Assembly: GCA_002762785.1 (NCBI GenBank)
Contig: PCXY01000005.1
Coordinates: 314,796-378,795, forward strand
Reading direction: 5' to 3'
DNA: 64,000 bases
Source of the DNA: Candidatus Woesearchaeota archaeon CG10_big_fil_rev_8_21_14_0_10_45_16
GTDB taxonomy: Archaea > Nanobdellota > Nanobdellia > Woesearchaeales > GW2011-AR9
A program made the translations under genes and the position numbers. This document shows, one piece after another, positions 2,621-31,607 of this stretch. The notes below the pieces were generated by a model. The model ran no database searches. It worked only from the letters and a program-made list of their open reading frames with translations, and had not been told where the DNA came from. Every line of letters starts with the position of its first letter. Within the stretch, counting starts at the first letter, position 1.

Positions 2621-2640
2621 GAAACATCAAGAATAAGCTT

Positions 2641-3527: not shown

Positions 3528-3534
3528 GACTGTT

Positions 3535-4470: not shown

Positions 4471-4591
4471 GGACAAAGTGAATCAATTACATTATTTAAA
4501 ATTATTCTATGTTAAGGCTTTTATGAAACTCATGGTGCTTTGGTCTGACGTTTCTGAAAATAATATACACTATTGAACAATATGTAAGAAG

Positions 4592-4735: not shown

Positions 4736-4748
4736 ATCCTCCAGCAAC

Positions 4749-5682: not shown

Positions 5683-5738
5683 AGCGGAAGGAAATTCTAA
5701 AAGTATTAATAGTTACTGGTTTTGAGTAAGGTTTTGGT

Positions 5739-7045: not shown

Positions 7046-8227
7046 CTATTTGTTAAACAATATAAAGCCAGCTAACGGCGACGTTCCTTTCTCGGAAGTA
7101 TAGGATGCGGCGCCATATAGCTGCTCCGCCTGATCCAGCTCAAGAGCATAGACCAGCTCATCGTCACAAAGGTAAGGGACTTCCAAAGAGACAGCGATAC
7201 AGCTGCGTTCAAGGTTATCATTGACAAACTCTTTCTTCAGTAAGAACTCGCCGGCGCTTTCCAGCACGTTGATAGCTGCGGCATCTCCTTCATATCCAAG
7301 CAGACTTTCGGCATTGCTTACATAGATAGCATAAGATTGCGCTTTCTCGCTGTATGGAAAACGCAGCTCGAAGCGGTTTCCCTGCTTTACTGCGGATAAT
7401 GGCAACGGCAAAGGCCTGCCAGGCGTAAAATCAAGCAGTAACTGGCGGTCTTCTTGAAGATCAGCGCAGAATATCACCTGGCGATCGGTCTCTTTAAACC
7501 CAGGAACGATGCAGAGTCCAGGGCTAAGGATAGTAAGATCTTTTCCTGACAGGCAGTTCTCTAAATTGACAGCATCACGGCAGGAAGCTACCAGCACTCT
7601 CGCTTCTTGCTCCAGAGACTCTAGCGCCAGGACTTCTGCAGGCAGGCTCCAATGGAAATCCGGCCGGAATGAATAGACCATCAACTCCTCCTTGGAAATC
7701 TTTTCAAGAAGTCCCTCGTCAACTTCCATACCAAGATCCTCAAAAGATTTTTTGTTGTTCTCGTATCTCTCCCGGCTGCCGTTACTGCTGAAGACGATAG
7801 GTTCTTTGACTCTGCCGATGACCCCTTCATCTATAAGGGAAAGTTCATATTGTATATCTAACTGAGAGTTAAGTGGTGACAGATGCGAGTGGAAACTTTC
7901 CAGATAGCGGTGGCGCGCATCAAAACTGCAGAATGTATCAGGAGTGTTGAGTTTTATCATGCCTTCGACCAGGCCGCAACCTAGATCACTGCTGAAAACG
8001 GCATCGCTAAACTCCACCACAGCTCCGTCAGAAGCAAGATGCGCTATCTTCTCTAATTGCAAACTCTGTTTCTCAGCTTCATAGACATAATTTTTCAGAA
8101 AATCGTAATGCCAGCTGCCTACCAGCTCCTGATCCGGAGTGAACGATCTGCTGGTGATCAGGAAGAAGACGATGGCCGCCAACGCTATCAGGACGATCCA
8201 ATGGGTAAAAGCTCCCTTGCGGTTCAT
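7046..8227 (-). CDS. pilin-like surface protein with class III signal-like N-terminus (393 residues)
   Basis: MNRKGAFTHWIVLIALAAIV gives a K4-G5 class III-type cleavage motif, then one hydrophobic helix to about residue 25. The rest, about 365 residues, is predicted to be outside the cell. It contains eight cysteines, which could form four disulfides, and a C-terminal SPLAGFILFNK. This is the last and largest member of the short-pilin gene run, and its ATG overlaps the preceding stop by four bases. Its size suggests a tip or adhesive subunit, but that is inference. No enzyme motif is visible. Confidence 0.75.
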   Translation of the reverse strand: MNRKGAFTHWIVLIALAAIVFFLITSRSFTPDQELVGSWHYDFLKNYVYEAEKQSLQLEKIAHLASDGAVVEFSDAVFSSDLGCGLVEGMIKLNTPDTFCSFDARHRYLESFHSHLSPLNSQLDIQYELSLIDEGVIGRVKEPIVFSSNGSRERYENNKKSFEDLGMEVDEGLLEKISKEELMVYSFRPDFHWSLPAEVLALESLEQEARVLVASCRDAVNLENCLSGKDLTILSPGLCIVPGFKETDRQVIFCADLQEDRQLLLDFTPGRPLPLPLSAVKQGNRFELRFPYSEKAQSYAIYVSNAESLLGYEGDAAAINVLESAGEFLLKKEFVNDNLERSCIAVSLEVPYLCDDELVYALELDQAEQLYGAASYTSEKGTSPLAGFILFNK

Positions 8228-8469
8228 CCTACATCCCCCTCTTCAACGACTATCGGTCTGGCTTCCGGTACTGAATCATAGAAAACGGCTCTCTCGGAAG
8301 TGATCGCATCGTTGACAGCAGTTACAGTATTGCGCTGGAACACTGAAAGGTCATCGCGGTCATTCGCAGCGGATATCAACCCCACATATATCAACGTCAG
8401 CGTCAAGAAAACCATGATCATCATCGCGAAAAGGTCGAACCAGTCGGCTACCAATCCTTTCTTGTTCAT
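8224..8469 (-). CDS. short pilin-like protein (81 residues)
   Basis: The N-terminus MNKKGLVADWFDLFAMMIMV carries K4-G5 followed by a hydrophobic helix to about residue 33. The exposed part is only about 48 residues and has no cysteine (NDRDDLSVFQRNTVTAVNDA). The size fits a small structural or assembly subunit. Four-base overlaps on both sides (8466-8469 and 8224-8227) show translational coupling. Confidence 0.75.
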   Translation of the reverse strand: MNKKGLVADWFDLFAMMIMVFLTLTLIYVGLISAANDRDDLSVFQRNTVTAVNDAITSERAVFYDSVPEARPIVVEEGDVG

Positions 8470-8945
8470 GTTGGCAGCCTCGTCAATGATTCCTGGACAA
8501 AGATCTCCAGAACATCTTTTTTCATCTCACTGCCGTCCCAGACCATAACCTCTTTGGTGAAACGGTAGGTCTTGACCTGAAAATAATTGTTAGTCTTGGT
8601 CTCTTGGCCGGTATCCACCAGATGAAGACCGAAGTTGAACGTGCGGAACCCTTCTTCCTCTGGGGTCTTATAGCAATGGGCCATCTGTTCATCATTGAAC
8701 TTGCTAAGGTCGATCACGCCAGCATGGGTTCTCTTGGTGACGGGATCCTGATATGCAAAACAATCGGCAGTGTTGGTGAATCTCTGTGAGATCAGATCTG
8801 CTTTCAGTTCTCCGGGAACGCCGGTGATGCGGTCTTTGTAACTGCTGATCATGATCGTAAAAGCGATGATGATGATCGAGACGACGAAGATGACGATCCC
8901 CCAGAAGATGGTCTTTCCCGCTACATCAAAAACATCATCCGACAT
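8466..8945 (-). CDS. membrane-anchored exported protein of the pilin cluster (159 residues)
   Basis: One N-terminal helix (IFWGIVIFVVSIIIIAFTIM, about residues 13-32) anchors an exposed domain with two cysteines in the order ADCFAYQDP then MAHCYKTPEEEG, which probably form a disulfide. Unlike its neighbours it lacks a K-G cleavage site before the helix (MSDDVFDVAGKTIFWG), so it may stay as a membrane-bound assembly factor. The stop overlaps the next start by four bases. Confidence 0.7.
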   Translation of the reverse strand: MSDDVFDVAGKTIFWGIVIFVVSIIIIAFTIMISSYKDRITGVPGELKADLISQRFTNTADCFAYQDPVTKRTHAGVIDLSKFNDEQMAHCYKTPEEEGFRTFNFGLHLVDTGQETKTNNYFQVKTYRFTKEVMVWDGSEMKKDVLEIFVQESLTRLPT

Positions 8946-9360
8946 CGGGGCACCTCTGCAGCTTGATGATACGGCCTTCTTTGTTCAGGCAGATCCGTTC
9001 GGTCTTTTCCACGAAGCCGTTCTCAGTATCGACAGCGAAGTCTTCCGGCAGGATAAATTCACGGGTGACACGTTCGTTCTGGTTGATGACGACAACTGAA
9101 TTCGAAGCAAGGACAAACGTATACAGAGACATGTTGCCAGGATATTCCACTAAGGCATTGCCGGGAGATGCCGCAAGAGTATTAGCCATCATCGACAGAT
9201 CTTCGGCTGCTCTCACTTGCTTGATCGAATCAGCATCGCCCAACACTGAAGTCACCTGGAACAGGATCAGACCCACGGAGATGATGAAGACCACTTCAAA
9301 GATCATCAGGATGATACTGGTCCCCCGCTTATCTTTGAGAAGTGAGGACGATGTCGCCAT
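8935..9360 (-). CDS. pilin-like protein (141 residues)
   Basis: The motif DKRGTSIILMIFEVVFIISV places a K-R-G site at residues 11-13 before a hydrophobic helix. The helix is followed by a Ser/Ala-rich amphipathic stretch, SIKQVRAAEDLSMMANTLAA, as in the long N-terminal alpha helix of pilins. The C-terminus has two cysteines (ERICLNKEGRIIKLQRCPD). It overlaps its upstream neighbour by 32 bases and its downstream neighbour by 11. Confidence 0.75.
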   Translation of the reverse strand: MATSSSLLKDKRGTSIILMIFEVVFIISVGLILFQVTSVLGDADSIKQVRAAEDLSMMANTLAASPGNALVEYPGNMSLYTFVLASNSVVVINQNERVTREFILPEDFAVDTENGFVEKTERICLNKEGRIIKLQRCPDVG

Positions 9361-9985
9361 TGTCGTTCTTTACCTCCAGGAATGTTCTTCTCGGATCGTC
9401 CTCAGAGCGATAATGATAAAATTTCTTGACTGAAAGATCACCGATGGGACTGCAGAGGATCTGGGTGCAGGTGGCTGTCTCAAATACGACTTGGGCGCCT
9501 TCCTGCTGAGTCCCCTGCACCTCACGTTCCTGACAAAGGCAGATGCAATCTTTGCCAAAACATTGGTCAGGATAGGTGTAAGTCGTATGGATCTCTTTTC
9601 TCACCGGTGATACCGGCGTATCCTGATAGGTTATGCGGTAAGGTTTCTCTTCACAGGTTTCCACGCCGCTTTTCGACTCACAGGTGCGGTACGTCACCTC
9701 ATGACCCTTTCCTTTCTCAAAGGTCAGCAGCGCCGTATCACCATCCATGATCAAAAGGACGGTCTTGACGTCGCCTTCCTGCTGGGCCACCTGCTTGATC
9801 GTGGAAACAACATCGTTGAAATTATCTTTAGCCTGACTGCTCAACCTGAAAAATTTTGAACCGAAGATGCAGGTCGGGGTGAAGATCAAGATGGCCAGCA
9901 AGACCGATACTAAGAATTTTAGCATGATCCCTTTTCTGCTTGAAGGGAATAAAAAAGTCCTGATCCTCTTATCTTTTTTTGCCAT
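9329..9985 (-). CDS. pilin-like Cys-rich exported protein (218 residues)
   Basis: A basic N-terminus with SSRKGIMLKFLVSVLLAILI puts a K-G site at residues 18-19 and a helix to about 37. The exposed part has about ten cysteines in close pairs (TCESKSGVETCEE, QCFGKDCICLCQE, TCTQILCSP), so it is probably strongly disulfide-bonded. The end, RTFLEVKNDNGDIVLTSQR, overlaps the start of the next gene by 32 bases. No family is recognised. Confidence 0.72.
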   Translation of the reverse strand: MAKKDKRIRTFLFPSSRKGIMLKFLVSVLLAILIFTPTCIFGSKFFRLSSQAKDNFNDVVSTIKQVAQQEGDVKTVLLIMDGDTALLTFEKGKGHEVTYRTCESKSGVETCEEKPYRITYQDTPVSPVRKEIHTTYTYPDQCFGKDCICLCQEREVQGTQQEGAQVVFETATCTQILCSPIGDLSVKKFYHYRSEDDPRRTFLEVKNDNGDIVLTSQR

Positions 9986-10002
9986 GATCTATCTTAATCT
10001 AT

Positions 10003-10290
10003 TTACGAGATACAATCTGATCCTTTCTTGTCATTCACACAGGCTTTAGGGCATTCTTGACCGCTGGCCAGATTTTCCTGGATGCTGGGATCGCAGGGAC
10101 ACCTGTCAAAGATGTCGGCAACATGGTCTTTGTCGCAGTCGCTCAGTCCAGCGATGCTATTGTCGACAGATCCAAAAGCCTTCTCACCGCTGCCTTTGAC
10201 CCATACTAATAGGAAGATAATCACCAATAGAGCGATGACTGCCGCTGCGATGATCCACCATAATTGCGCATATCCTTTTTTCATCTTCAT
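10003..10290 (-). CDS. short Cys-rich pilin-like protein (95 residues)
   Basis: The ATG at 10290 is preferred over the GTG three bases earlier, because the GTG is part of a GGTGA ribosome site. After MKMKKGYAQLWWIIAAAVIA a 20-residue helix leads to a 60-residue Cys-rich head (LSDCDKDHVADIFDRCPCDP, then ECPKACVND). DxDxD-like spacing suggests a possible calcium-binding loop. It shares W-W-I-I, A-V-I-A-L and a G-L-S-D-C segment with the 120-residue protein at 12432-12794, so the two are paralogues. Confidence 0.72.
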   Translation of the reverse strand: MKMKKGYAQLWWIIAAAVIALLVIIFLLVWVKGSGEKAFGSVDNSIAGLSDCDKDHVADIFDRCPCDPSIQENLASGQECPKACVNDKKGSDCIS

Positions 10291-10293
10291 CAC

Positions 10294-11169
10294 CTATTTT
10301 CCCCCAATATCCGAGACGAATTCACATTTTTCGTTCATGGCCCGGCTGATCTCCTCATTGCTTAAGTCAACCAGCATGATCGCATCAACATTGCTTTTGG
10401 TGTCTGTGATCAGGTCAGAGATCAATGAATAGGCGCCGATACCAGCGAGAGCCGCGCCGCCACCCAGCAATGAACCGCCGATGCCGATAGTATAAAAGCC
10501 GATGGCGCCGATGCCGGCGCTAAGGCCGCCGCCAAGCAGCAGATCGCCGCCGCCTTCAGAATCTTGGGCTTTCGCTTTGAAGGCTATACCGTAACCGCGG
10601 CCAGGTTTTATCCCTTCCTCGCTCAGCAGTCCGACAACATACCCGGGACCGCCGCCGAACTGGAAATAATCAAGATAGGTCTGTTTCTTTTTGTCATAGG
10701 TTGTTTCCCGTAGGTATTGCTGGAACTCTTGACCGGAGATACCTTGGCTGTCGCGTTTGAAATCGCTGCTTTCATCGATAGCTATGGTGTAGCACATGAA
10801 GCATTTGTTGCCGCCGGCAAAAAGGTTGGTGTTGTCAAAAGCACCGGTCTTGTACGATCCTTCGCCGAAGATCTCCCAGCAACGGGCCATCTTCTGGGCG
10901 ATCTGACTTTCTACTTCCTCTTTGCTGCCGGATATCTTTTTATCGAGAGTCTTGCACAGCACTGGACTTACCCTGAACTCGGTCTCTTTGACATTGAGAG
11001 AAGTGGCTGCTCTAAGAGCGATGCTGTCTTTACACAATGTTTCAGCCTGCTTGTCCTCGGCACTGGACATGAAACGGAAGATGGTACCAGCTATCAGGAC
11101 GAACGCCGTCAGCACTATGATAACCGATACTAAAAATCCTGCTTCCATGCCTTTTCGTGTTATTCTCAT
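10294..11169 (-). CDS. pilin-like protein with Gly-rich C-terminal region (291 residues)
   Basis: The start is ATG 11169 (MRITRKGMEAGFLVSVIIVL), with a four-base overlap of the upstream stop. The longer frame from TTG 11181 is less likely. K6-G7 precedes the anchor helix. The exposed part contains CFMCYTIAID (a CxxC pair) and IAFKAKAQDSEGGGD. A glycine-rich hydrophobic stretch at about residues 205-250 (GGGLSAGIGAIGFYTIGIGG) could be a second membrane or assembly segment. No enzyme motif is seen. Confidence 0.72.
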   Translation of the reverse strand: MRITRKGMEAGFLVSVIIVLTAFVLIAGTIFRFMSSAEDKQAETLCKDSIALRAATSLNVKETEFRVSPVLCKTLDKKISGSKEEVESQIAQKMARCWEIFGEGSYKTGAFDNTNLFAGGNKCFMCYTIAIDESSDFKRDSQGISGQEFQQYLRETTYDKKKQTYLDYFQFGGGPGYVVGLLSEEGIKPGRGYGIAFKAKAQDSEGGGDLLLGGGLSAGIGAIGFYTIGIGGSLLGGGAALAGIGAYSLISDLITDTKSNVDAIMLVDLSNEEISRAMNEKCEFVSDIGGK

Positions 11170-12131
11170 CGCGCCTCGCAAGTCAATAGTTTTCCTAACC
11201 TGATCTGATTGATGATGTTGACCGACTCATACGGCGGGGTGTCTCCAGCTAAGCAGTCGTCATCCAGCCCTTCCGGATCGTTCTCTAGGAGCGTGGAAGG
11301 GATTATGTCTTCGGTTCTAAGCTGGTTAAGACGTTCCGATACTGTCTGGCCCTCTTCCCCATATATCTGAGCCTGGCTCAGGCGTTCCCAATCACATTTA
11401 TTGTCTCCTTGTATCGTCGGAAAGAAACAGATATGCTGGCCGTCTGGAGTGTATAATATACCGCCGTCAAAGAGATTATTTCCCTCGTCGTTGACGAGGT
11501 CAGCTGGGAATTCAGGAACAGAGATATGGTTGCCGTCAATGTCTCTCAGCGAATCAGAATAATAGATCTTCAGGGAATTGACAGGGATATAATGCCTTGG
11601 CTGGTAGCGTTGTATCTTCTCATTCCAAGGCAGTTCGTTAAGATAGATGTCAGTGAAACTCTTTACGTAACTTTCACTGCCGGCGATGACGCAAAGACCC
11701 ATGCCTTCGATGAATTCGGCTGAGACTTCCTGAAAGCCGCCTTTGCCGCCATTGACGATAAATTCTGCCCCTTCCACGCCATCTTTGTCCTTTCCAGTAG
11801 CCAAAGTAATAGAAGCTCCCTGCATATCAGGCAGTCCGGAACCGAAGATGTTGTCGCTATAAGTGGCGAAGCACGGTGTCTGTTTGGCGTTCATCATGGC
11901 TTTCATGGTCTTCTTCAAACTATTGACGCCTTGTGACTGCGCAGCCGGTAGTGATGGCTTCTGTCCGGAAACGGTCTCAGAGCCGACGGTTATCGGTACG
12001 CTGATCGATTTGCTGAAATCTTTGACTTTGTTGAACGCGCCGCCAGGATTATAGTAGAAGCCGAGCCATAGAGCTAAGATTATCAGCAGCAGTACGATAC
12101 CACCGATCTTCTCAAAACTGAATTCTGCCAT
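11166..12131 (-). CDS. pilin-cluster exported protein (321 residues)
   Basis: ATG 12131 (MAEFSFEKIGGIVLLLIILA) is chosen over GTG 12146, since the short form puts K-I-G-G right before the helix, as in the other members. About 290 exposed residues follow with five or six cysteines (TPCFATYSD, MGLCVIAGSE, HICFFPTIQGDNKCDW, DDDCLAGD, LLTCEAR). The family is unknown. Four-base coupling joins it to the next gene, and its start overlaps the stop region of the 46-residue gene upstream. Confidence 0.72.
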   Translation of the reverse strand: MAEFSFEKIGGIVLLLIILALWLGFYYNPGGAFNKVKDFSKSISVPITVGSETVSGQKPSLPAAQSQGVNSLKKTMKAMMNAKQTPCFATYSDNIFGSGLPDMQGASITLATGKDKDGVEGAEFIVNGGKGGFQEVSAEFIEGMGLCVIAGSESYVKSFTDIYLNELPWNEKIQRYQPRHYIPVNSLKIYYSDSLRDIDGNHISVPEFPADLVNDEGNNLFDGGILYTPDGQHICFFPTIQGDNKCDWERLSQAQIYGEEGQTVSERLNQLRTEDIIPSTLLENDPEGLDDDCLAGDTPPYESVNIINQIRLGKLLTCEAR

Positions 12132-12132
12132 C

Positions 12133-12273
12133 TTATAACAGGTCACCCAGTTTTCCCAGCAATCCTCCCAGGTCTTTATTCAAGCCGCTGAACCAGGCGA
12201 TGATGAACACAAGCAAAACTAAAGCTAAGATTATCAGGATCAGGTGCCATACCTCCATGCCTTTCTTGTTCAT
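12133..12273 (-). CDS. 46-residue pilin-like micro-protein
   Basis: MNKKGMEVWHLILIILALVL shows the K4-G5 motif and a helix to about residue 28. Only about 18 residues follow, ending LGGLLGKLGDLL, an amphipathic helix. It is far too small for a pilus shaft and might be a chaperone-like or helix-packing subunit. The gene starts inside the stop codon of the preceding gene (ATGA, 12270-12273) and ends two bases from the next ATG, so it is firmly embedded in the operon. Confidence 0.7.
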   Translation of the reverse strand: MNKKGMEVWHLILIILALVLLVFIIAWFSGLNKDLGGLLGKLGDLL

Positions 12274-12419
12274 GGCAGCAGCCTCCCTTTGAATCGGTAG
12301 GCATAATACAGAAGGAACAACCCGATGATGATGGCCAGGATGATGACGACAAGAGTGCCCGGACTAAGCATATCTTCTCCTTTCTTGTCCTGTGGTAAAT
12401 AACCGGTTATCCATCTCAT
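12270..12419 (-). CDS. 49-residue pilin-like micro-protein
   Basis: Read from ATG 12419, the protein has DKKGEDMLSPGTLVVIILAI: a K-K-G site at residues 12-14, then a helix, then a basic tail RFKGRLLP. A second in-frame ATG at 12371 has a closer GGAG ribosome site and would give only 33 residues, but it would drop the K-K-G motif shared by the neighbours. I therefore prefer the longer form. It overlaps the next start by four bases. Confidence 0.6.
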   Translation of the reverse strand: MRWITGYLPQDKKGEDMLSPGTLVVIILAIIIGLFLLYYAYRFKGRLLP

Positions 12420-12431
12420 CGATAATATGTC

Positions 12432-12794
12432 TCATTGACAATAGGTAACACCTTTGATCGTCAGTGCGCACCTGCGGCCTTGACTGCATTCGTCATCGGA
12501 AGTACAGCGTTTCGGGACGCCCAGGCAGCAGACACTGCCGGTAGTGCAGGCGAAGGCACTGTTCTGCAATGAACTTTGTGGACAGGGCTGGTTTCCCGGA
12601 ACACATAAGCCGCCTTTGCCCTCGCAGTCGCTAAGCCCGGTGTCCAGGGCACTGCTCTTGCTGGTGAAGATGACCATCAGCACGATCAAGACGATCAGGG
12701 CGATGACGGCCCCGATGATGATCCACCACATGTCGGCCGAACCTTTAGAAGAAAAAAAAGAAGTACGATGCTGTCTCAGTCCGGCGCCTGTCAT
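12432..12794 (-). CDS. Cys-rich pilin-like protein (120 residues)
   Basis: An S-S-K-G site near residues 15-18 is followed by a 22-residue helix (WWIIIGAVIALIVLIVLMVI). About ten cysteines are then spread as DCEGKGGLC, QPCPQ, FACTTGSVCCLG and RCTSDDECSQGRRC, with Cys near the end (TYCQ). This is a small knotted head resembling eukaryotic Cys-knot modules in spacing only. It is a paralogue of the 95-residue protein at 10003-10290. Three bases separate it from the upstream gene. Confidence 0.72.
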   Translation of the reverse strand: MTGAGLRQHRTSFFSSKGSADMWWIIIGAVIALIVLIVLMVIFTSKSSALDTGLSDCEGKGGLCVPGNQPCPQSSLQNSAFACTTGSVCCLGVPKRCTSDDECSQGRRCALTIKGVTYCQ

Positions 12795-12797
12795 GGC

Positions 12798-13163
12798 TTA
12801 CCCCCAGCGGCAGAACTGGTCCGTGTCACAACTGTCCTTGCTGGTGAAACCACGGCATCTGCTGACATCACTGTTAAGCTTGTCTTTGGCTTCGGCCATG
12901 CCTTGAGCTGATAGTGCTGCATCTTCTAGAGCATCGGCTTCATTGTATGCTGTGGAAAAAGCGCTTTCGGCAGCAGCGTTAGGATGACATTCGCCGTAGA
13001 GAGCTCTTGTCGCTCGTAATTCTGAATCGGCAGCACCGCCCAGACCTTGCTGGAAGACACCGATACGACCGGTAAAAACTAAGACTAGAACCACCAGCAC
13101 GATCAATGCCAGGGCTGCTACTATGATAACATTTAAAGAAAGACCTTGACCTCTTTTATCCAT
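12798..13163 (-). CDS. pilin-like protein, probable major subunit type (121 residues)
   Basis: MDKRGQGLSLNVIIVAALAL is a textbook class III N-terminus: K-R-G, then Q at +1, and a helix to about residue 30. After it comes an Ala-rich helical part and a C-terminal CRGFTSKDSCDTDQFCRWG with three clustered cysteines. Very similar N-termini are frequent in DPANN genomes. The GAGGTG ribosome site before the ATG and the TATA box at about 13239-13250 make this the first gene of a transcript, which would allow high expression. Confidence 0.78.
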   Translation of the reverse strand: MDKRGQGLSLNVIIVAALALIVLVVLVLVFTGRIGVFQQGLGGAADSELRATRALYGECHPNAAAESAFSTAYNEADALEDAALSAQGMAEAKDKLNSDVSRCRGFTSKDSCDTDQFCRWG

Positions 13164-13238
13164 TTGTCCACACCTCGTTTTTAAGTTTGATCCTTAAGTC
13201 TGATTAAAGACTATAATCTAATCTATAATGATAACGGT

Positions 13239-13250
13239 TTTCTATATAAA
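13239..13250 (-). promoter_or_regulatory. internal promoter of the pilin cluster
   Basis: On the minus strand the 138-base gap between 13164 and 13301 contains an A/T box (TTTATATAG) about 80 bases before the ATG at 13163. Transcription would start near 13215 and give a leader of about 50 bases. It is the only sizeable gap within the pilin gene run. Confidence 0.5.
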
Positions 13251-13301
13251 TGTAACGGCTTTAGAGGGGGCTATTTCAAGATAATCAGGAAAAGATTATC
13301 T

Positions 13302-13907
13302 TCAATCACAGATAAACAGCTGGCTCTGCAGCAATCCAACCTGCCTGATCTGCAGCGGGTAAAGGCCTGAACCGTCCCGGTCGCTGGCAAAGGATTTAGG
13401 ACAGCCGCCTGCCGCAGACCTTATCAGGAAGATGGTCTCCTGCTCGCCGCCCAGACGCAGCAGAGATACCTGCAGCTCGTATCTCTTGCCGACCCTTCCC
13501 ACGGCATCTTCCAGAACTGTCGACGCAGTCTCTTCAAAATACTGGCAGCTGTGCTTATTGTCACACAAAAAATCGGAACGCCCGTCATAATTTGGCGGAC
13601 CTGAACCATAATGTTGAGCGCAATCTTCTAGAATCTTGTCTCCCAAAGGTAGAGGAACGTCACTGCCGCTGCCGCATTCCTGCCCGGGAACCGTCAGCTT
13701 CAGCAAGGCGGCCATGGTGCTGCTGGCCAGCTCTTTTCGTGTGAAAACTTTTTTCTGCTCATCGGATTTCAATGCAAAGATAGCCAGGAAGATCATGCCT
13801 AAAGAGATCAAGATAACTATCACTACCAGTCCAACAACTTCCATCTGTCCCAACTTTCCACGGGGAGAGTCCAAAAACAGTCGATGTTTTGTAGGCTTTC
13901 TTTTCAT
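13302..13907 (-). CDS. pilin-like protein (201 residues)
   Basis: The anchor reads KLGQMEVVGLVVIVILISLG, with a K-L-G-Q cleavage motif after a long basic leader of about 20 residues. The exposed part carries a Cys set (GQECGSG, EDCAQHYG, FLCDNKHSCQYF, GGCPKSF, LFICD). It starts four bases inside the end of the preceding gene. Its stop is followed by the internal promoter region, so it ends the first pilin sub-transcript. Confidence 0.73.
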   Translation of the reverse strand: MKRKPTKHRLFLDSPRGKLGQMEVVGLVVIVILISLGMIFLAIFALKSDEQKKVFTRKELASSTMAALLKLTVPGQECGSGSDVPLPLGDKILEDCAQHYGSGPPNYDGRSDFLCDNKHSCQYFEETASTVLEDAVGRVGKRYELQVSLLRLGGEQETIFLIRSAAGGCPKSFASDRDGSGLYPLQIRQVGLLQSQLFICD

Positions 13908-14455
13908 TGGTACACTCCGACGGTCACCACACCAACTTTATACTCGGCTTTCCCCTGCGACTCATCTTTTAGGGTTACGACAAAACGGGTCTCTTCTTTC
14001 CGTTCCCAGATGACGTTGCCTTCCGCATCTTTTTTCTCACGATCGTATACCGGCCAGATTTTAGGAGAACTACTCTCATCACCGCTGAAGTCCTGTTCAT
14101 CTGGAAATACCTGTTCTACAGTTATCGTAGCGAAACCAAATATTTGGTAATAATAATCTATCTTCAGCAATTCTTCTGCCTGATTCAGTTTGAGGATGTC
14201 AAAGCAGAAATCTTCTGATTCCCCTTCGCCTTTTGTACATGATAGTTCCGGCAGGAACAGCACCTGCGTGGTCTTCTCGATAGCCTGGCGCTGAAAGATC
14301 TCTTCCTGTTTGTTCTGCAATGAACTTTTTTGAAACTGGTAATAGAAGACGATGCCGAATGTAAGAAGAACAAAGAAGATGAAGAGGATAGCCACTGTCT
14401 CGGTCATCTGGATCTGTGCTTTTCTGTCTCGTCCCATCTTTTTATTTTTTTTCAT
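13904..14455 (-). CDS. pilin-like protein (183 residues)
   Basis: After MKKNKKMGRDRKAQIQMTET the class III-like motif is K-A-Q, a permitted K/R-A form with Q at +1, and the helix runs to about residue 42. The next part, YYQFQKSSLQNKQEEIFQRQ, continues as the exposed half of a pilin-type long helix. Two cysteines (LSCTKGE, DFCFDILK) and a mainly beta C-terminal region follow. It is coupled by ATGA to the downstream gene. Confidence 0.73.
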   Translation of the reverse strand: MKKNKKMGRDRKAQIQMTETVAILFIFFVLLTFGIVFYYQFQKSSLQNKQEEIFQRQAIEKTTQVLFLPELSCTKGEGESEDFCFDILKLNQAEELLKIDYYYQIFGFATITVEQVFPDEQDFSGDESSSPKIWPVYDREKKDAEGNVIWERKEETRFVVTLKDESQGKAEYKVGVVTVGVYQ

Positions 14456-14495
14456 CTTATATCGTTTCCCTAACTTTCATCAATATGATGCGTGA

Positions 14496-16180: not shown

Positions 16181-16222
16181 CTTTTTTCTTCTAAAAATCT
16201 TGAAGATCGTTCTTTCCTTTTT

Positions 16223-22342: not shown

Positions 22343-22369
22343 ACTTACGTTTTCTGAGAAGAACTTATC

Positions 22370-22378
22370 GTTTATAAA
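22370..22378 (-). promoter_or_regulatory. TATA box of the giant surface-protein gene
   Basis: TTTATAAAC on the minus strand lies about 28 bases before the ATG at 22342, the spacing expected for a leaderless archaeal transcript. Confidence 0.55.
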
Positions 22379-22408
22379 CCTACCGTCTTGAAAAAAAGCC
22401 GTTTTCCA

Positions 22409-23338: not shown

Positions 23339-25890
23339 CCTTGATCACCTGTTATCTCACAGCGTGCGCTTCTGCCGAAAGGCTTGACGCAATGTCCTTC
23401 GCCAAGTTCGAGGTCGAGGCAAGCCGAGCCTTGATTGTTGGAAGTGCAGGCTGAGTCAAACTGGCGGTTGTCGGGATTCTCTGGCAAGTTAGCAAAATTG
23501 TAACCAGGATTGTTTCTAGCAACAATCAACGTTGATACTTCTCGGTTGTTACCACAGCCAAGAGGACCAGCACACCACCAGCCTTCTTCTTTGTTAAGTG
23601 TCCATTGTGGTTGACCTGAACATTGGACCGCAACTTTTGAACAGGAAGTGGCCAAGTTAGGATCCGTCGTGATGTCAGCGCAGAATCCTGGATTGATTAA
23701 GTTTGTCTCCGCTTCTTTTTGATTGAGACAAGTATTACCCCTAACACCATCACAAGCATAGACAACAGATCTACTCTCTTCCAGATAGCCGGCTGGTTCG
23801 GAGATGTCGATGAGTTCTGGTGACTTACCACCACAACTGATATCTTCCGGAGAGGTAAAACAAGTTGTTCCTGCAGGCAGCGGCGTCCAGGTAGCGGCAT
23901 CACAGCAGGCGTGGGTTGCCAGGAAAGGGTTAATGGAGTCACCTTCTTTTATAGAATTTGGCTGATTATCGTTTTCTACTTCAACAAAATTCTGGAAAGG
24001 ATAAGGGAAGTTGTGTCCTTCAGTATTAACGTGAGGGATACAGCCGACGACTTTCAATGTTTTCTGCACGGCCGTTTCCTGTTTAGCTTCTTCACAGTAT
24101 GATGCTTCATAGTTTAACGACAGCTGTCCACCGATGGTATCGATCTGGTTGAAGATTGAAGAGTCTTGCCGTGACTGCAGTTGTTCTTTCCAGACTTCGA
24201 TCAAGGGTTTGCCTCCGATGTTGGTGTTGTATGATCCCAATGACTGCTGTTTCCAAGGATAAGCATAGACAACGTCATTAGATGTTCTGCCAAGCGTAAC
24301 TGGCTCTTCCACGAACGACTCCCGGCCGCTGTAAGATAAGGTTATGGTCGGATCGTCAAGAAGCCCTGTCTGGGAACTGGCCGGAGTCTTGACAGAAACT
24401 AGGAACGGATCTTCGGTCGATACCCAGTATTCCCTGCCTGAAAAGTATCCGCTGTAGGAGATAAGATTGCCATTTTCATCTTTGATGGTATAGCCAGTGT
24501 CGACGTTAAGATCGATATCTAAAGGACGGTCGATGAAGATGCGGACGTCCTGCTTGTCTTCTTTCTTGCCGTCGGAAGCGGTAACGATGATGTTGTAAAG
24601 TCCTGGTTCAACTGAAGGAAGGGCGTCGTTCTTAATCTCTAATTCAGGAATATCGCTTGTTGAGGGAAAAACAAAGTCTTGGATATCTCTTGACGGAAAT
24701 AATTTTTTAGTACCTTGTTCGAACGAATAAGTGATTTGGCTCTCGGGACCATCACCGATAGGTTTATCTTCGTCGGCATCATGGGCCTTGGGAGAGATGA
24801 ACAGGATGTTAAGATCGCTGTTATCCCCGGGAACTACTAAATAATCAAATTTGGCTGGACATTCCTTTCTGGAGATATAATCCAACGCAGGAGGGCGATC
24901 CTGCCGGGCAAAGCGGTAGCTGTACTCGCCGAAAGGATAGACGTCGGGAGCGGTAAATGTAAAGATCTCGTCACCAGTTTCGTCATCCTTCGCTTTTACC
25001 AGCTGGATGTTCATCTCATCATAACCCTCCATAGTAGGGAAGTCGCAGATCTGGAGGTTGTTCTCCTCACGACAGACCAGGTTGGGGTTGGCTTCCGGCG
25101 CCGCAAATGAAAACGTCGGCTGTTCTAGGTTGCCTTGTGAATAATCATAATCAACGTAGCGGGAATCCCAGATGATCGGATTCAGGACAGCTGCCCGCAT
25201 GAACCGGGGGAAATCTGTCTCGTAGAAAAATTCAAAGTTGGTCAGCTGAAAATAATTCTCGCCAGAAAGGCTGAACTCCAAAGGGAAATCGGCTTTGATG
25301 TCCAGACCGTTGAAATCCATGGAAACGTCAACCTCGATCTGTTCCGTGAGCAGTTCGGCCTCTTCAGAGATCTCTTCTTCGGTAAACTTGGAGACGCACT
25401 CCAGCACTTCACGAGAGACGTATCTCTGCAGGTTCGCCTGGATGTTCCGCAAAGTCAGATACGCGGTGCCGAAGGAAGCTTCCTGGGGATATCGATACTG
25501 ACAGAAAGCTGGTGGATCGTCTGCTGTCTGGCAGGGAAATGCTTCAGGATATTCGGAACTAGAAGACTGCCGGATAGCATAGAAGGTGGGAACATTTTGA
25601 TAGGTTATCCCATTCTCGTTTTCGGTAAAAGCATCACGACCACCTTGGTCCTCCCATAATGTTCCCTGCTGGCCAAGAGTCTTGAGACCTTCTTCCAGAG
25701 GGTCGTTGAGACAGTCTTGGATAAAGATGCGCGCCGCTTCTTTAGTCACAAGACCGCCGAACAGCTCTTCCTGCTGCGAGAGAAGCTGCTGTTTCTTAAG
25801 GCTGCTGCTGAACTGGATAAAGATGATAGCGATAAATAACAAGATGATCCCCAGGATGATAAATATGGTGACTTGTCCTCTTTTTTTCAT
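23335..25890 (-). CDS. large pilin-like surface protein (851 residues)
   Basis: MKKRGQVTIFIILGIILLFI is a clear class III-type N-terminus (K-R-G then Q). The helix is followed by an exposed region of about 820 residues. A cadherin/PKD-like beta domain lies at about 365-470 (GLYNIIVTASDGKKEDKQDV), and a Cys-rich C-terminal third has more than 20 cysteines (ACCDAATWTPLPAGTTC, WWCAGPLGCGNN, CEITGDQG). A pilin anchor on such a large head suggests a tip adhesin. A TATA-like TTTAAAAAG (about 25914-25923) gives leaderless spacing. It is coupled to the 309-residue gene. Confidence 0.8.
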   Translation of the reverse strand: MKKRGQVTIFIILGIILLFIAIIFIQFSSSLKKQQLLSQQEELFGGLVTKEAARIFIQDCLNDPLEEGLKTLGQQGTLWEDQGGRDAFTENENGITYQNVPTFYAIRQSSSSEYPEAFPCQTADDPPAFCQYRYPQEASFGTAYLTLRNIQANLQRYVSREVLECVSKFTEEEISEEAELLTEQIEVDVSMDFNGLDIKADFPLEFSLSGENYFQLTNFEFFYETDFPRFMRAAVLNPIIWDSRYVDYDYSQGNLEQPTFSFAAPEANPNLVCREENNLQICDFPTMEGYDEMNIQLVKAKDDETGDEIFTFTAPDVYPFGEYSYRFARQDRPPALDYISRKECPAKFDYLVVPGDNSDLNILFISPKAHDADEDKPIGDGPESQITYSFEQGTKKLFPSRDIQDFVFPSTSDIPELEIKNDALPSVEPGLYNIIVTASDGKKEDKQDVRIFIDRPLDIDLNVDTGYTIKDENGNLISYSGYFSGREYWVSTEDPFLVSVKTPASSQTGLLDDPTITLSYSGRESFVEEPVTLGRTSNDVVYAYPWKQQSLGSYNTNIGGKPLIEVWKEQLQSRQDSSIFNQIDTIGGQLSLNYEASYCEEAKQETAVQKTLKVVGCIPHVNTEGHNFPYPFQNFVEVENDNQPNSIKEGDSINPFLATHACCDAATWTPLPAGTTCFTSPEDISCGGKSPELIDISEPAGYLEESRSVVYACDGVRGNTCLNQKEAETNLINPGFCADITTDPNLATSCSKVAVQCSGQPQWTLNKEEGWWCAGPLGCGNNREVSTLIVARNNPGYNFANLPENPDNRQFDSACTSNNQGSACLDLELGEGHCVKPFGRSARCEITGDQG

Positions 25891-25947
25891 CTGACAGTCG
25901 TAGATTTTGTAACTTTTTAAATCTGATGGAAAGAGAAAGAAGAATAC

Positions 25948-28900
25948 CTACTCGATGCTCGGCCGTAATCTTGCTGTCAGCTGCGGCCAGAGGAAATTGG
26001 TTCCAGAAGTGGCCTCGATACGCTGGAGGTTCTCGTCCTCGGTGCAGGCAAAAGTATCAGGAGAGACAAAACCGCCTTCCTGCGCGATATTCTGTGATAA
26101 TCCTGTCGGCGTGACCAATCTTCCCGGCTTAAGATATTCGCAGACCGGTGTGTCGAAGTTCTCATATTCGGCTATCAAGGTCTGTTTTTCTCCCTGTATC
26201 TCTCGCACCGCCCTGACGCCAAGGTCTTGATCTTTCAGCACATAGACGTCGCGAAGGTTCTGGGACTCGGAGATGAAATTGCTGTTGTCTTCCGTATCGA
26301 GAACGTTCTCAGCGCCGAAGAGGCTGCTGAAAAAACCGCCGATGACATCAGCCACCCGGCCGAAGAAACCGCGTTCAAAGTTCTCTTTAGCGTAGATGAT
26401 CGAATTAAGATCTTTGGAATACCACAGGAACTCATCGCGATTGCCGATGTCACACTGCACGAAATCTCCCCCTTCCTGACAGTTGACCTGTTCTGGAGGG
26501 ATGTTTAAAGCCTGAGTAAATGAATTAGGATCGTTGATATCGATGTTCAGAGAGGTGGCCATCAGGGTCTTGAAATCGTTCCCATCTTTATATTGGAGAA
26601 GGCAGACGTTGTTGATGCAGGTGTTGTCTTCTGGAGGGACTAAAGGGTCATCTCCTGAGAACTGCTCGCCGCCAAAACAAGTCTGGATATTCTGCAGTCC
26701 TTCCTGTAACGGTTCGCTTTGGTCAACAGTAGGCGCCGCAGAGATCCCGCCGCCGATAAACTGTTCACTGTTATCAAGCTCGTTCAGAACATCCCGATAA
26801 TTGCCGCAGAGGAGTCGGTAGTCCCTATCGCCAGCGATCTCTAACAATGAGCCGGCCAGGAACTTGGTCCTGGAAGACCATTCGCCGTTCTCGCAAAGGT
26901 GGTCGAAGACATATTCGTTGTCATCGACGCAGTTAGGAACATCGCCGGTGTAGATGGTTTGGGCTGTGCCTTCTGCCGTTCCGTCTCCAGAGACCAGGCA
27001 TTGTTCTTTAGCTGAGCAGAAACCCCACTCATCATGATCCCAGTTCCAGCGGACCGGAAGAGCCTTCCAGTCACCTTGGACGCAGCGGTAGATACGCCCT
27101 TCGTCCACGACTTCGCCGATATTGGTAGCTTCGCTCATCGGTTCAGAACAGGCAAAGCCGTTCCAACAATAATTGGTAGGACAGCAGGCTAATGGCTGCC
27201 GGGCATCGTTGTTCTCCAGCTGATCTTCATAATCTCTTTCTCGGAAATTTTCAGCCGATGGGAATCCGGCTTCCACGATCTGCAGATAAGGTTTGCTGAT
27301 GTCACAAGGCCCATTGAAAGTTAATTGTAAGACCGAAGCATCGCCAGTGTTGAACTCTAACTCTTGGACTTCTCTTGATTGCATACCACCTAACAATACA
27401 AAAATCGGACGGCAGCTTCCTTCAGCAGAGAAATGGAGGTCAAAATTATCCACGGCAATACGCTCGGAACGAAGGGTGTCGCCTTCGTTGAGATGTAATA
27501 AATTATCAGCAAAGTTTTGTCTAACATCACTCAGAACTTGGCCGTTGGAAATCAATTCCCAATAAGGCATATCTCCTCCTGGCCTATTGAATAAAGCGTT
27601 TGATAAAAGGTTTCTTCCGGGGAAGATGGAGGTAAGATTGTCTCGTTCTAGATCTATCTCATTGACATTTAGGTCTCTCACGCCGAGATAGAGTTCAGTA
27701 AGGTCTTCAGGAATATCTCCTTCCGGCGCGACGGAACCGATCTTTGTCAAAGCTTCGCTGACCCAGGAGTTGACGATGGTCTTGCCGTCTTGCCGTACTG
27801 AAGGGCTGCAGAAAAGACTGCCGTAGACAGAACAAGAGTTAGTGTTGCTGAACCAAGTTCCGGCGCCGGCACCGACAAAGGCAGGGGCTTTACAGCCGCG
27901 GAAGCCGCGTTCGTTTTCAGTATCTGCTAAAAGCACCTGTTGGGATACGGCTGTCGCCAGGACGTTTCCTGGTCCCTCAAAAGGTCCGGCGCTGATAGGT
28001 TGACGTCCGGCTTCGTTGACAAACCACAATTCATATAGTTCAGGATGAGGATTGCTGATAACATACGGCCCTTCTCCTGGCAGCGGGAACAGGCATTCTG
28101 TTTCTGCGCAGGTGTAGGAGAAAGTCCCTGGTAATCGCGAAGCTTCCGGCATGCTGACCCTGATCGCTTCAGGACGGACTCTAAGTCTTACTTCTATGGG
28201 ATCGTAATTTTCTTTCAGGCCGAGTTCCCGTTGTGTTTTGGTGACAGTCGGCGGTTGACCTCTATCAACAAAAAATTCGCCTCCGGTTCTTGGATTGTAA
28301 AAATAGAAATCAAAGCCTTGCTCTAGAAAGACATTAGAAAATTCTTCAGTAGAACCCCCTTTGGGTCTTATGTCTCCCAGCCATAACTTGTGTTCGCGGT
28401 CTGGGTCAAGCGCAAAACGATGTGAGCCCATGAACTGCCCCTCCCTGCCATAGACGGAGTTATCGATGGTAAGATCATATTGTGATCGATTAGTTTGTTT
28501 TGTTCTCTCAAGAAAATAAGTCAGCGTGTACCCAATCTTATCACTTTCGGGATATTCGATGTCGATCGTTGCCGGTCTTTCCTGATAGGTCACTTCAAAC
28601 TCCACATCAGCTACCGTCTGCCCGGCCTGTACCACCTGCGAGTTCCAGCAGCCTTGTCCGTTGACAGATGAGCCGGCATAATACTCGTTGTCGGCATTGC
28701 CGCAACAGAGAGCGCTATCCTGGCTGGTCTCTTCGAACCAGGCAGTTTCGCCGAAATGGGCAATGCATAGATCTTTTCCTTGAGGAACATCATAATCGGT
28801 TATCCAGGCTCCTTTCTGCGCATCTAATTTTCCTGAACATAATACAGTCGGGTTTTCTTTATTGTTGAGATAGACGTTGCTGACACTGATCTTATTTTCA

Positions 28901-30702
28901 GAAGGGCTGCTGGTAAGCTTGACCGCTTCGACGTTTCTTAAGTTTTCTGGGATGGGCACGACTGCATGCATCGCGGAGGTCGGTGAGAACAGCTGGTTCT
29001 TGACATCTGAAAGGATGCTGCGGGAATAGATCACTTGGTTGTTGAAGCCGATGATCTCTAAGGTCAAGACGGCTGGTGCTTCTGGTGTGATATATTTTTC
29101 TGCCGGTGCTGCAGCCGCTTCTCCTTCTGCAGGTGGTTGTTCAGAAGGTTGTTCATCTGAAACATAGCCGAAGAAGATGTCCATCTGGTTGTAGCCGGAG
29201 AAATCAAAATATTCTGATTCAGGGATGATGTTAAGGACGTCATGTGAACCGGTAATCGGTGACAAAGCATACAATCCGTCCCCGGCTTTCCTGACTTTGT
29301 TTGGCAATGAGGATCCTTCCTGAGAGACAGTCTCGGTGTCGGCGCGGCATTCAGCCCAGCTCCATCGCTGGCCTTGCTGGTAGCAGTAAAATGATGTCGC
29401 TTTTTCTACATCGGTAACTCGCGGCGAGATCTCGGAACTGATGCCCAGCGTCCCTTCCGCTTCTGCTGAACAGATGTGCCAATTGACGCTGTCTGAGACG
29501 ACGTCTCTATTGTCTACTGAAATAATCTGGAGATCTGTGTTGCCGGCATCTATCCACTGCCAATGGCCAGTGGCAGTTGTCTGAGGATCTTCTGAAGACG
29601 GCTCGCTTTCTCCAGGGAGCGTCTCTTCGACAAGATCGGTATCAAGACAGACTTGCTGCAGTGGACTTCCTCTCGCAGTAGTTATGTCCAACAGGTCGCC
29701 GGGATTGTTGCCGCAGCAGTTGTTGCCGTTTTCCGCATCTTCCAACCAGTCATTGCCGCTGCCGATACAAGCTGCCCTGTCCTGCTCGCAGTTATCGACG
29801 TCTTCGCAAGTCAGCTCTCTTTGTTCCCAGATGTAACCAGTATCATCTTGGCTGCAGACCCAAGGCTGCACGGACTCTTGCTCAGCATCGGCTGATTCGA
29901 CAATGAACGATTTTCCAAGCGAATCGGCGTCACAAACATACCAGCGGAATTCGTCCTCTCTTTTTAAGCAGACAAAAGTTTGGTCAACCGGAGCCTGAAA
30001 AAGATGGTTATTAAAAGCGCAAATTGAGTGTTCATTATCAATGTAATTTTTTTCGGCTTCACCAGAGACGAGCATTGATTGCAGCTTGTTGCTGCCGAAA
30101 ACTCGCCCAAACGTATTTTCAGGGGGGACTTCTTCGCCAAAAAGGCTCTTTCCGGTTATGCCGGCCACAGTAGGATCGTTTCTGATGACGGTTCCTTCTG
30201 GGATAAAGAAACCGGCACAGTCGTTGGGGGTTGGCGCATCGTTTGATTTTCCGTCTTCTTCCTCACTTAAGAAATAACAGCCGGCTGTATTGGTCAGCGG
30301 AAGATCATCCCAAACACATTGGTACCTGTCGTTGATCTCTTCTCCCACTGCGGGGATGCGATTAAAGGTATTGCCAAGAGGATTATTATAGCTAAAAAAA
30401 GGAAAGGCCACACCCAACTTAACGCCTATCTTTTTAGTTTTCAGCACGTTAAAATTGATCACGTCATCGACATCACAGCTAGTGTCGTCGTCATTGCCCC
30501 AGACACCTAAAGCATAGGTAAAAGAAGTTCCGGCATCATCAAAGAAAATCTCATCGAAACTATCATCGTTGCCATCGGAATCATAAAAAGTAGAATCATA
30601 TTCTGTGGGAGCGCCATCCTCATATTCTAACTTTGCAAATACCAACGCACTCAAAACTAGCAAAAGAACTACAGCTATCAACATCCCTCTTTTTTTGTTC
30701 AT
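25948..30702 (-). CDS. giant exported Cys-rich protein (1584 residues)
   Basis: MNKKRGMLIAVVLLLVLSAL is a signal or class III-like leader ending near FAKLEYED. The mature part is acidic and rich in Cys, Trp and Asn. It contains repeated small Cys modules (CCGNNPGDLL, LCCGNADNEYYAG, ACCPTNYCWNGFAC) and beta-sandwich-like stretches. There is no C-terminal membrane helix, so it is either anchored by its N-terminus or released. No known domain is recognised with confidence. A TATA box (CTTTATAAAA, about 30730-30739) lies about 28 bases upstream. It is the first gene of the surface locus and precedes the 851-residue gene by 57 bases. Confidence 0.78.
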   Translation of the reverse strand: MNKKRGMLIAVVLLLVLSALVFAKLEYEDGAPTEYDSTFYDSDGNDDSFDEIFFDDAGTSFTYALGVWGNDDDTSCDVDDVINFNVLKTKKIGVKLGVAFPFFSYNNPLGNTFNRIPAVGEEINDRYQCVWDDLPLTNTAGCYFLSEEEDGKSNDAPTPNDCAGFFIPEGTVIRNDPTVAGITGKSLFGEEVPPENTFGRVFGSNKLQSMLVSGEAEKNYIDNEHSICAFNNHLFQAPVDQTFVCLKREDEFRWYVCDADSLGKSFIVESADAEQESVQPWVCSQDDTGYIWEQRELTCEDVDNCEQDRAACIGSGNDWLEDAENGNNCCGNNPGDLLDITTARGSPLQQVCLDTDLVEETLPGESEPSSEDPQTTATGHWQWIDAGNTDLQIISVDNRDVVSDSVNWHICSAEAEGTLGISSEISPRVTDVEKATSFYCYQQGQRWSWAECRADTETVSQEGSSLPNKVRKAGDGLYALSPITGSHDVLNIIPESEYFDFSGYNQMDIFFGYVSDEQPSEQPPAEGEAAAAPAEKYITPEAPAVLTLEIIGFNNQVIYSRSILSDVKNQLFSPTSAMHAVVPIPENLRNVEAVKLTSSPSENKISVSNVYLNNKENPTVLCSGKLDAQKGAWITDYDVPQGKDLCIAHFGETAWFEETSQDSALCCGNADNEYYAGSSVNGQGCWNSQVVQAGQTVADVEFEVTYQERPATIDIEYPESDKIGYTLTYFLERTKQTNRSQYDLTIDNSVYGREGQFMGSHRFALDPDREHKLWLGDIRPKGGSTEEFSNVFLEQGFDFYFYNPRTGGEFFVDRGQPPTVTKTQRELGLKENYDPIEVRLRVRPEAIRVSMPEASRLPGTFSYTCAETECLFPLPGEGPYVISNPHPELYELWFVNEAGRQPISAGPFEGPGNVLATAVSQQVLLADTENERGFRGCKAPAFVGAGAGTWFSNTNSCSVYGSLFCSPSVRQDGKTIVNSWVSEALTKIGSVAPEGDIPEDLTELYLGVRDLNVNEIDLERDNLTSIFPGRNLLSNALFNRPGGDMPYWELISNGQVLSDVRQNFADNLLHLNEGDTLRSERIAVDNFDLHFSAEGSCRPIFVLLGGMQSREVQELEFNTGDASVLQLTFNGPCDISKPYLQIVEAGFPSAENFRERDYEDQLENNDARQPLACCPTNYCWNGFACSEPMSEATNIGEVVDEGRIYRCVQGDWKALPVRWNWDHDEWGFCSAKEQCLVSGDGTAEGTAQTIYTGDVPNCVDDNEYVFDHLCENGEWSSRTKFLAGSLLEIAGDRDYRLLCGNYRDVLNELDNSEQFIGGGISAAPTVDQSEPLQEGLQNIQTCFGGEQFSGDDPLVPPEDNTCINNVCLLQYKDGNDFKTLMATSLNIDINDPNSFTQALNIPPEQVNCQEGGDFVQCDIGNRDEFLWYSKDLNSIIYAKENFERGFFGRVADVIGGFFSSLFGAENVLDTEDNSNFISESQNLRDVYVLKDQDLGVRAVREIQGEKQTLIAEYENFDTPVCEYLKPGRLVTPTGLSQNIAQEGGFVSPDTFACTEDENLQRIEATSGTNFLWPQLTARLRPSIE

Positions 30703-31307: not shown

Positions 31308-31402
31308 AAGCGATTAAAATAGTAAAAACTTTTATAAATATACCCCCTAAAAAAGACCTATTCAAACAGTTGCCTCATTTGGAGACGGTTGGGAGAAAAA
31401 CT

Positions 31403-31606: not shown

Positions 31607-31607
31607 G

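Follow-up and report, generated by a model that had tools for sequence, protein, structure and literature searches.

The window (the whole 64,000-nucleotide stretch that was analysed) lies on contig C3 of an uncultivated Woesearchaeota-like (DPANN) archaeon. Between positions 7046 and 30702 its minus strand carries a block of about 20 genes, which encode about 17 distinct pilus-type subunits and three large Cys-rich surface proteins. The block is flanked by an RNase P p30 gene on one side and an RPA-like gene (6034-6984) on the other, and RadA is found at 278-1234. The initial annotation had read sixteen small ORFs (7046-16180) and an 851-aa ORF (23335-25890) as tightly packed on one strand, and the distances between neighbouring genes of the block (-4, -4, -11, -32, 17, 0, -16, -14, -4, 12, 3, 138, -4, 40, -4, 42, 66, -4 and 57 bp) bore this out. 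Scanning the window for Rfam families and tRNAs gave no matches, and examination of the 138-bp gap (13164-13301) revealed no small gene of note. The genes are listed below; a slash marks the predicted cleavage site of the class III (prepilin) signal, and the evidence follows the semicolon.

25948-30702, minus strand: P10, 1584 aa, Sec-exported, second TM absent; homologues at the same place in relatives
23335-25890, minus strand: P11, 851 aa, long-necked pilin-like adhesin, class III signal KKRG/QVTIF; signal, model
22409-23338, minus strand: P12, 309 aa, Cys-rich exodomain, C-terminal TM, basic tail; TM analysis
16223-22342, minus strand: P13, 2039 aa, Sec-exported giant; domain searches, conservation
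15614-16180, minus strand: P14, 188 aa, pilin-like (DKKG/MGIGQVF); motif, helix conservation
14496-15617, minus strand: P15, 373 aa, pilin-like (KRRG/QVSVT); homologue starts, AlphaFold model
13904-14455, minus strand: P16, 183 aa, pilin-like (DRKA/QIQMTETVA); Gln at +1 in 17/17
13302-13907, minus strand: P17, 201 aa, pilin-like (GKLG/QMEVVG); synteny, helix conservation
12798-13163, minus strand: P18, 121 aa, small pilin-like (DKRG/QGLSLN); helix conservation
12432-12794, minus strand: P19, 120 aa, small Cys-rich pilin-like (SSKG/SADMWW); motif, paralogy, helix conservation
12270-12419, minus strand: P20, 49 aa, one-helix micro-pilin-like (DKKG/EDMLSPG); found at 11 loci
12133-12273, minus strand: P21, 46 aa, one-helix micro-pilin-like (NKKG/MEVWHL); motif, N-helix paralogy
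11166-12146, minus strand: P22, 326 aa, one N-terminal helix, class III motif absent; scan
10294-11181, minus strand: P23, 295 aa, pilin-like (TRKG/MEAGF); motif scan
10003-10293, minus strand: P24, 96 aa, small pilin-like (MKKG/YAQLWW); N-helix paralogy
9329-9985, minus strand: P25, 218 aa, pilin-like (SRKG/IMLKFL); motif scan
8935-9360, minus strand: P26, 141 aa, pilin-like (DKRG/TSIILMIFE); motif present, strict scan negative
8466-8945, minus strand: P27, 159 aa, one-helix protein, motif absent in the source genome; motif in 9/13 relatives
8224-8469, minus strand: P28, 81 aa, pilin-like (NKKG/LVADWF); motif scan
7046-8227, minus strand: P29, 393 aa, pilin-like (NRKG/AFTHWI), last gene of the block; motif scan

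Comparison with relatives showed that the gene order was kept in 485 of 490 adjacent pairs across 32 Woesearchaeota/Nanoarchaeota species. Many further families of the same order also had a near-identical arrangement, and another order of the class shared the core block. Thus, synteny is conserved in relatives, distant families included.

The class III feature that was tested consists of a K/R-rich leader, Gly or Ala at -1 and a retained hydrophobic helix. By eye and scan, an N-terminus of this type was present in 15 of the 17 products of the window, so the earlier statement that all but one carry the motif was right for most of them, but two (P22 and P27) had no usable K/R..G/A motif. The motif was seen in only one of 14 P22 homologues, and P19 and P26 have it, yet they failed the strict scan in the source genome. 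In 17 relatives the scan was positive for 179 of 225 operon genes versus 5 of 199 flanking genes, which together with the kept gene order means that the observation is not due to chance. The motif by itself is no proof, because in P10 and P13 a KRG motif also stands before a Sec signal. Conservation analysis showed that the 22-residue stretch behind the predicted cut was the best-conserved part of P11 and P14-P19 (ratio 1.5-2.3 versus the rest), and Gln stood at +1 in all aligned P11 (20/20), P15, P16, P17 and P18, whereas in the Sec-exported proteins the N-terminal segment was the less conserved part (ratio 0.63 for P10 and 0.75 for P13). Matches among families other than P12/P13 lay mainly within the first 25-60 residues, a pattern typical of pilins.

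The ORF of P15 was first called as 14496-15695 (399 aa), but its start is most likely at 15617, which is the start position of its homologues. P15 is a single-copy marker found in 276 of 371 genomes of the phylum. Its AlphaFold model (pLDDT 89.6) had a 47-residue N-terminal helix (22-68) followed by a beta ectodomain and a helical C-terminus, and Foldseek against the PDB gave no fold match at E <= 0.001, so the ectodomain could not be named. The N-helix of P18 is paralogous to those of P19, P24 and P21, and P18/P19-type subunits occur in 2-4 copies in other families. The ectodomains varied in several proteins: that of P22 is highly variable in length among relatives (228-683 aa), that of P29 is fast-evolving, P24 homologues reach 493 aa, and many relatives have a second hydrophobic segment in P23. 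Searches of the small proteins against Pfam, NCBIfam and PDB sequences returned sub-threshold chance matches only. No window protein matched PF07790 (Pilin_N, the archaeal pilin N-terminus) above the cut-off; the P23 homologue of G060, a relative from another family, matched it below the cut-off (E 0.0015), and P21 had a weak Flp1-like match (E 0.022).

Three large exported Cys-rich proteins had been described, and P10, P12 and P13 are indeed present, but P12 and P13 also have a C-terminal TM and a cytosolic tail, which is conserved in P13. P10 contains 46 Cys, of which 32 are conserved, and it is possibly a non-pilin tip or adhesin protein. P13 has 77 conserved Cys, carboxypeptidase-regulatory-like, fn3 and Ig-like domains and acidic DxDxDG repeats, and its N-terminal region (29-185) is paralogous to the N-domain of P12 (23-155; hhalign probability 99.4). 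The AlphaFold model of P11 (pLDDT 78) had an N-terminal helix of about 72 residues (4-75) and a beta-rich ectodomain with an Ig/cadherin-like middle and a Cys-rich C-terminus, and its structure matches were Ig/cadherin folds generally. A lytic transglycosylase has been described in a large Woesearchaeota family (PMC8204110); such an enzyme was unsupported in the enlarged P22/P24 or the 3,000-aa P13 homologues, where only Ig-like, CARDB and TSP3 hints were obtained.

No ATPase or TadC-like protein had been visible beside these genes; this holds for the window, but other contigs of the genome encode an ATPase and a putative, diverged TadC-like platform. Contig C4 encodes one VirB11/FlaI/TadA-type ATPase of 763 aa (PF00437, E 2.2e-15). 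It most resembled the FlaI profile (E 1.6e-34), but the 119.5 bits are far under the FlaI cut-off of 550 bits, and among PDB structures it matched 2oap, an ATPase of archaeal type II secretion (2e-34), CpaF (6e-24) and FlaI (1e-21). A prepilin peptidase (A24, E 1.1e-14) was found on contig C6, where its gene adjoins two further class-III-type proteins. The diverged TadC-like platform was traced through weak matches (E <= 10) in 720-760-aa frames, which led to one multi-TM protein of 723 aa on contig C5. This protein had no Pfam match, PF00482 included, and is 57% identical to the G060 protein encoded directly after the ATPase gene; the family also adjoins the ATPase in G067. Its T2SSF signal is weak (matches in 3 of the 6 members of the family, lowest E 3.5e-4; hhalign probability 74). 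The peptidase was present in 353 and the platform in 362 of 371 genomes of the phylum, and both were kept even at 0.4-0.6 Mb. The motor parts are therefore dispersed, and none adjoins the pilin genes. In Haloferax an ATPase/TadC pair can serve pilins whose genes lie in trans (PMC4858521), so adjacency of motor genes is usual but not obligatory. Although its genes are unlinked to the operon, this motor probably serves it, as judged from exclusion, co-occurrence and family knowledge.

The analysis shows the genes, their order and conservation, the signals, the motor genes and the predicted folds. We consider it probable that the genes of the block specify the filament and the surface components of a pilin-rich archaeal machine of the type IV filament (T4P-like) kind, which carries disulfide-rich adhesins. 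The initial reading as pilins is supported by the synteny, the peptidase, the ATPase, the putative diverged platform, the conserved retained helix and two models with pilin layout. We infer prepilin processing, polymerisation, division of labour and use as follows. The 15-17 one-helix proteins would enter the membrane as prepilins and be cut by the single A24 peptidase, and the hydrophobic helix would stay on the mature protein. The ATPase and the platform would then draw the subunits from the membrane into a heteromeric fibre, short or long. The best shaft candidates are the small, repeatedly duplicated P18/P19/P24-type subunits, P14-P17 as the most conserved ones are candidates for the initiating or minor-pilin complex, and P11 with its long neck and its Ig-like and Cys-rich domains is a candidate tip adhesin. 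The secreted P10 and the membrane-anchored P13/P12 may form a disulfide-stiffened adhesive cap or a surface scaffold around the fibre, which would likely be used for contact with another cell or a surface.

The subunits could instead build a secretion pseudopilus. Like its counterpart in bacterial type II secretion, it would work as a short piston within the envelope and expel P10 or another Cys-rich cargo, and no fibre would extend outside. The diversity of the subunits, none of which stands out as an abundant major pilin, the Sec-exported secreted giant P10 in the same block and 2oap as the nearest structure to the ATPase are in line with this, but we regard it as unlikely, since P10-P13, with Ig-like and fn3 domains and a TM anchor among them, resemble adhesins that stay on the cell surface, several families have extra copies of P18/P19-type subunits, which would suit a shaft, and to our knowledge the lone archaeal membrane offers no secretin through which to push cargo. 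It is more improbable still that uncleaved single-pass proteins form a static complex that anchors or shapes an S-layer-like Cys-rich coat of P10, P12 and P13: the large proteins do dominate the block, P13 stays within the colinear block in most relatives and P22 and P27 lack the cleavage motif in the source genome, but the motif enrichment, the Gln at +1, the preferential helix conservation and the retention of peptidase and platform in almost every genome of the phylum, those of 0.4-0.6 Mb included, argue against it. A DNA- or nutrient-uptake (Com-like) pilus for presumed auxotrophs is the least probable reading. The RPA-like and RadA genes do stay with the block in G060, which is in its favour, but they are, like RNase P p30, housekeeping genes, and DNA uptake through ComEC was rejected, as PF03772 was absent from all 60 relatives, the source genome included (archaeal controls also lack it, so this covers the ComEC-type channel alone).

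The type IV filament reading finds a close parallel in the complex T4P of Thermoproteales subclade 4G, which has a diverged ATPase and TadC, many diverse small predicted pilins, two large proteins, of which one has a C-terminal TM and the other a signal peptide, and many conserved cysteines (PMC4858521; Makarova, Koonin and Albers 2016). The subclade 4G components evolve fast even among close genera (PMC4858521), whereas here about 17 pilin-like families keep one order across an archaeal order, the genes for ATPase, platform and peptidase lie scattered, and none of the pilins reaches the cut-off of a PilA-family profile. The euryarchaeal T4P (PilA/PilB3 of Haloferax) are similar in their in trans pilins, A24 peptidase and class III signals, but have PilA-family major pilins (arCOG02416), in contrast to the weak PF07790 match in one relative here. 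In bacterial T4aP, PilY1 is a large secreted non-pilin protein that works with minor pilins; P10 and the minor-pilin set recall this by analogy alone, as no sequence similarity was found for P10. The Myxococcus Kil (Tad-type) pilus has exchangeable minor-pilin tips with variable disulfide-rich distal domains and serves cell contact (PMC12075869); by description it likewise has several minor-pilin complexes with such domains, but it is bacterial, serves predation and has far fewer subunits per tip. Module 98 (Castelle et al. 2021, PMC8204110) comprises 51 Woesearchaeota/Pacearchaeota families, mostly of unknown function, is widespread in exactly these lineages and includes very large surface proteins; it was defined through co-occurrence, and the word "pilin" is absent from that paper. 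The genes of the block may be among its families.

Characterised systems have a handful of pilin-type subunits, which is far exceeded by about 17 distinct ones in one conserved order. A literature search, with preprints and most subscription papers outside its coverage, found no description of the cluster. The 2016 census of archaeal T4P listed nanoarchaeal ATPases for which identifiable cognate pilins were absent (PMC4858521), and a later paper on Nanohaloarchaeota (DPANN) again reported motor genes with no annotated pilins (PMC9563170). For one of the largest groups of uncultivated archaea, the locus is a strong candidate source of these missing pilins. More tentatively, and with somewhat more doubt than confidence, the block may encode a nanomachine for host contact that defines the Nanoarchaeota (Woesearchaeota and relatives) as a lineage. 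In it, about 15-17 pilins, none able to replace another, would form an obligate heteropolymer with giant disulfide-bonded adhesins as its cap, and the machine would be kept even in 0.5-0.7 Mb genomes because the cells could not live without attachment to a partner. The locus also supplies marker proteins (P14-P18, with P15 in single copy), and its concrete targets for imaging and proteomics make partner contact by these cells testable.

The window belongs to contig C3 of a 1.18-Mb genome (98% complete, six contigs). Twenty genes were found packed on the minus strand from 30702 to 7046 with nearly no intergenic space, which confirmed the initial annotation of sixteen small genes and an 851-aa gene lying tightly packed on one strand with three large exported Cys-rich proteins:

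P10, minus strand, 1584 aa, Sec-exported, Cys-rich
P11, minus strand, 851 aa, one N-terminal hydrophobic helix
P12, 22409-23338, minus strand, 309 aa, Sec-exported, Cys-rich, with terminal TM segment and basic cytosolic tail
P13, 16223-22342, minus strand, 2039 aa, Sec-exported, Cys-rich, with terminal TM segment and basic cytosolic tail
P14 to P29, minus strand, sixteen small genes after P13

The block lies between an RNase P p30 gene upstream and an RPA-like OB-fold gene downstream. These housekeeping flanks (278-6984 and 30762-32540; RadA, SET-domain protein, RPA-like, RNase P p30, PP-loop ATPase) were partly retained beside the block in G060, a genome of another family. P12 and P13 have a homologous Cys-rich N-terminal domain in common, P12 being a short paralogue of this part of P13 with a similar TM segment and C-terminal tail, which suggests partner or competitor proteins.

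The 17 block proteins other than P10, P12 and P13 each have a single N-terminal hydrophobic helix. A prepilin leader (K/R-rich patch, then G/A before the cut) had been claimed for all but one of them, and in this genome it held for 15 but failed for P22 and P27. The class III motif scan was positive for 179 of 225 operon genes versus 5 of 199 flanking genes. The Sec signals of P10 and P13 likewise begin KRG, so the 22 residues after the motif were compared in conservation with the remainder of each protein. In P11 and P14-P19 they were 1.5-2.3 times as conserved as the remainder, and Gln stood at +1 (first residue after the predicted cut) in all aligned P11, P15, P16, P17 and P18; in P10 and P13 they were less conserved than the remainder (0.63 and 0.75), as for a signal that would be discarded. 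P22, P23, P24, P26 and P27 showed no raised conservation (ratio 0.76-1.05), partly because of poor alignments, and their candidacy as pilins rests on position, plus the motif here or in relatives for all except P22. AlphaFold modeled P15 as a 47-residue helix with a beta/alpha ectodomain (pLDDT 89.6), and P11 as an approximately 72-residue helix followed by domains matching Ig and cadherin folds (pLDDT 78). Motif, helix conservation and models supported the pilin-like reading. The P15 ectodomain had no PDB match at E ≤ 0.001, and profile comparison linked the families chiefly via their N-terminal helices. The largest differences in ectodomain length were seen for P22, at 228-683 aa, and for P24, at 81-493 aa; these may be exposed, partner-facing parts.

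A P11 search hit 89 of 96 relatives, and in most family members the hit was strong. When 15-40 kb were read around 20 of these matches, 17 regions had the same gene order, G060 among them, so that the proposed synteny search in DPANN genomes was positive; in one of the 17 the contig stopped after P13. The P11 homologue was apart from the block in G002, G003 and G015 (L040, L053, L039). Region L124 carries a second P11-like gene after P29. Nineteen further, distant regions centred on P15 contained much of the block, shortened or with P18/P19 types duplicated, and in G125, a genome from a different order within the class, P11, P13, P14, P15, P16 and P17 stay together. An independent scan with a P13 alignment against 84,980 named species returned 39 loci, every one titled Woesearchaeota, Nanoarchaeota or unassigned archaeon; 32 of them had at least 8 block genes, and of the 490 pairs of neighbours in these, 485 kept the order. 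The proteins share on average only 24-54% identity with those of the window, so the order has been preserved over long times.

The absence of a visible ATPase or TadC-like protein was true of the window but not of the genome, in which we detected one FlaI/TadA-type ATPase and, in answer to the proposed check, one prepilin peptidase (A24). An initial T2SSF search of the genome found nothing; a weak match was later obtained in a 723-aa frame, 57% identical to a 731-aa protein directly after the ATPase gene in G060. The pair of ATPase and putative platform is adjacent in G067 also, and appears to be split apart in the source genome. The T2SSF signal was weak in other members of this diverged platform family (best 3.5e-4). 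Of the same 371 phylum genomes, 362 have the putative platform, 353 have the peptidase and 276 have P15. Class-level families without a P15 match mostly had weak platform matches too, to which we give little weight, since functional link and simple distance both fit.

Several neighbours of these genes were seen. Directly 3' of the peptidase gene (L034:9301-11562, contig C6) are two class-III-type proteins of 187 and 179 aa with NKKG/SKKG leaders, and 4 kb from it (L034:14170-15330) is a 386-aa membrane protein whose C-terminal stretch resembles a lytic transglycosylase domain by eye, with no recognition by Pfam. Beside the ATPase (L033:12498-15396, contig C4; L106:10040-12389) are two coiled-coil genes and three multi-TM proteins of about 190 aa, possible accessory machine parts, at least partly retained beside the G060 pair. 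The putative platform gene has as its neighbour a gene (L105:8756-10024) for a secreted protein of 422 aa, in which a permuted papain-like (C92) domain was weakly matched.

A Com-type DNA uptake pilus is very improbable, as ComEC was not found in 60 relatives, own genome included; the archaeal controls lacked it too, and a different type of channel in archaea would have escaped this search. The best-supported reading is that the locus encodes pilins in trans for a type IV filament machine, as in Haloferax (Makarova and colleagues, PMC4858521); putative shaft, tip and scaffold roles were assigned solely by subunit size, number of copies, degree of conservation and domain content. The superfamily of the machine is already known, and the Thermoproteales subclade 4G complex T4P are the nearest described relatives in plan. 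Our searches of mainly open-access journal literature found no account of the locus, and a 2016 census listed nanoarchaeal ATPases without identifiable cognate pilins (PMC4858521). The locus stands out for subunit number, conserved order and breadth. Cultivated DPANN archaea live in dependence on a host, and from this and the adhesin-type domains, the likely role of the putative filament would be attaching to a partner cell.
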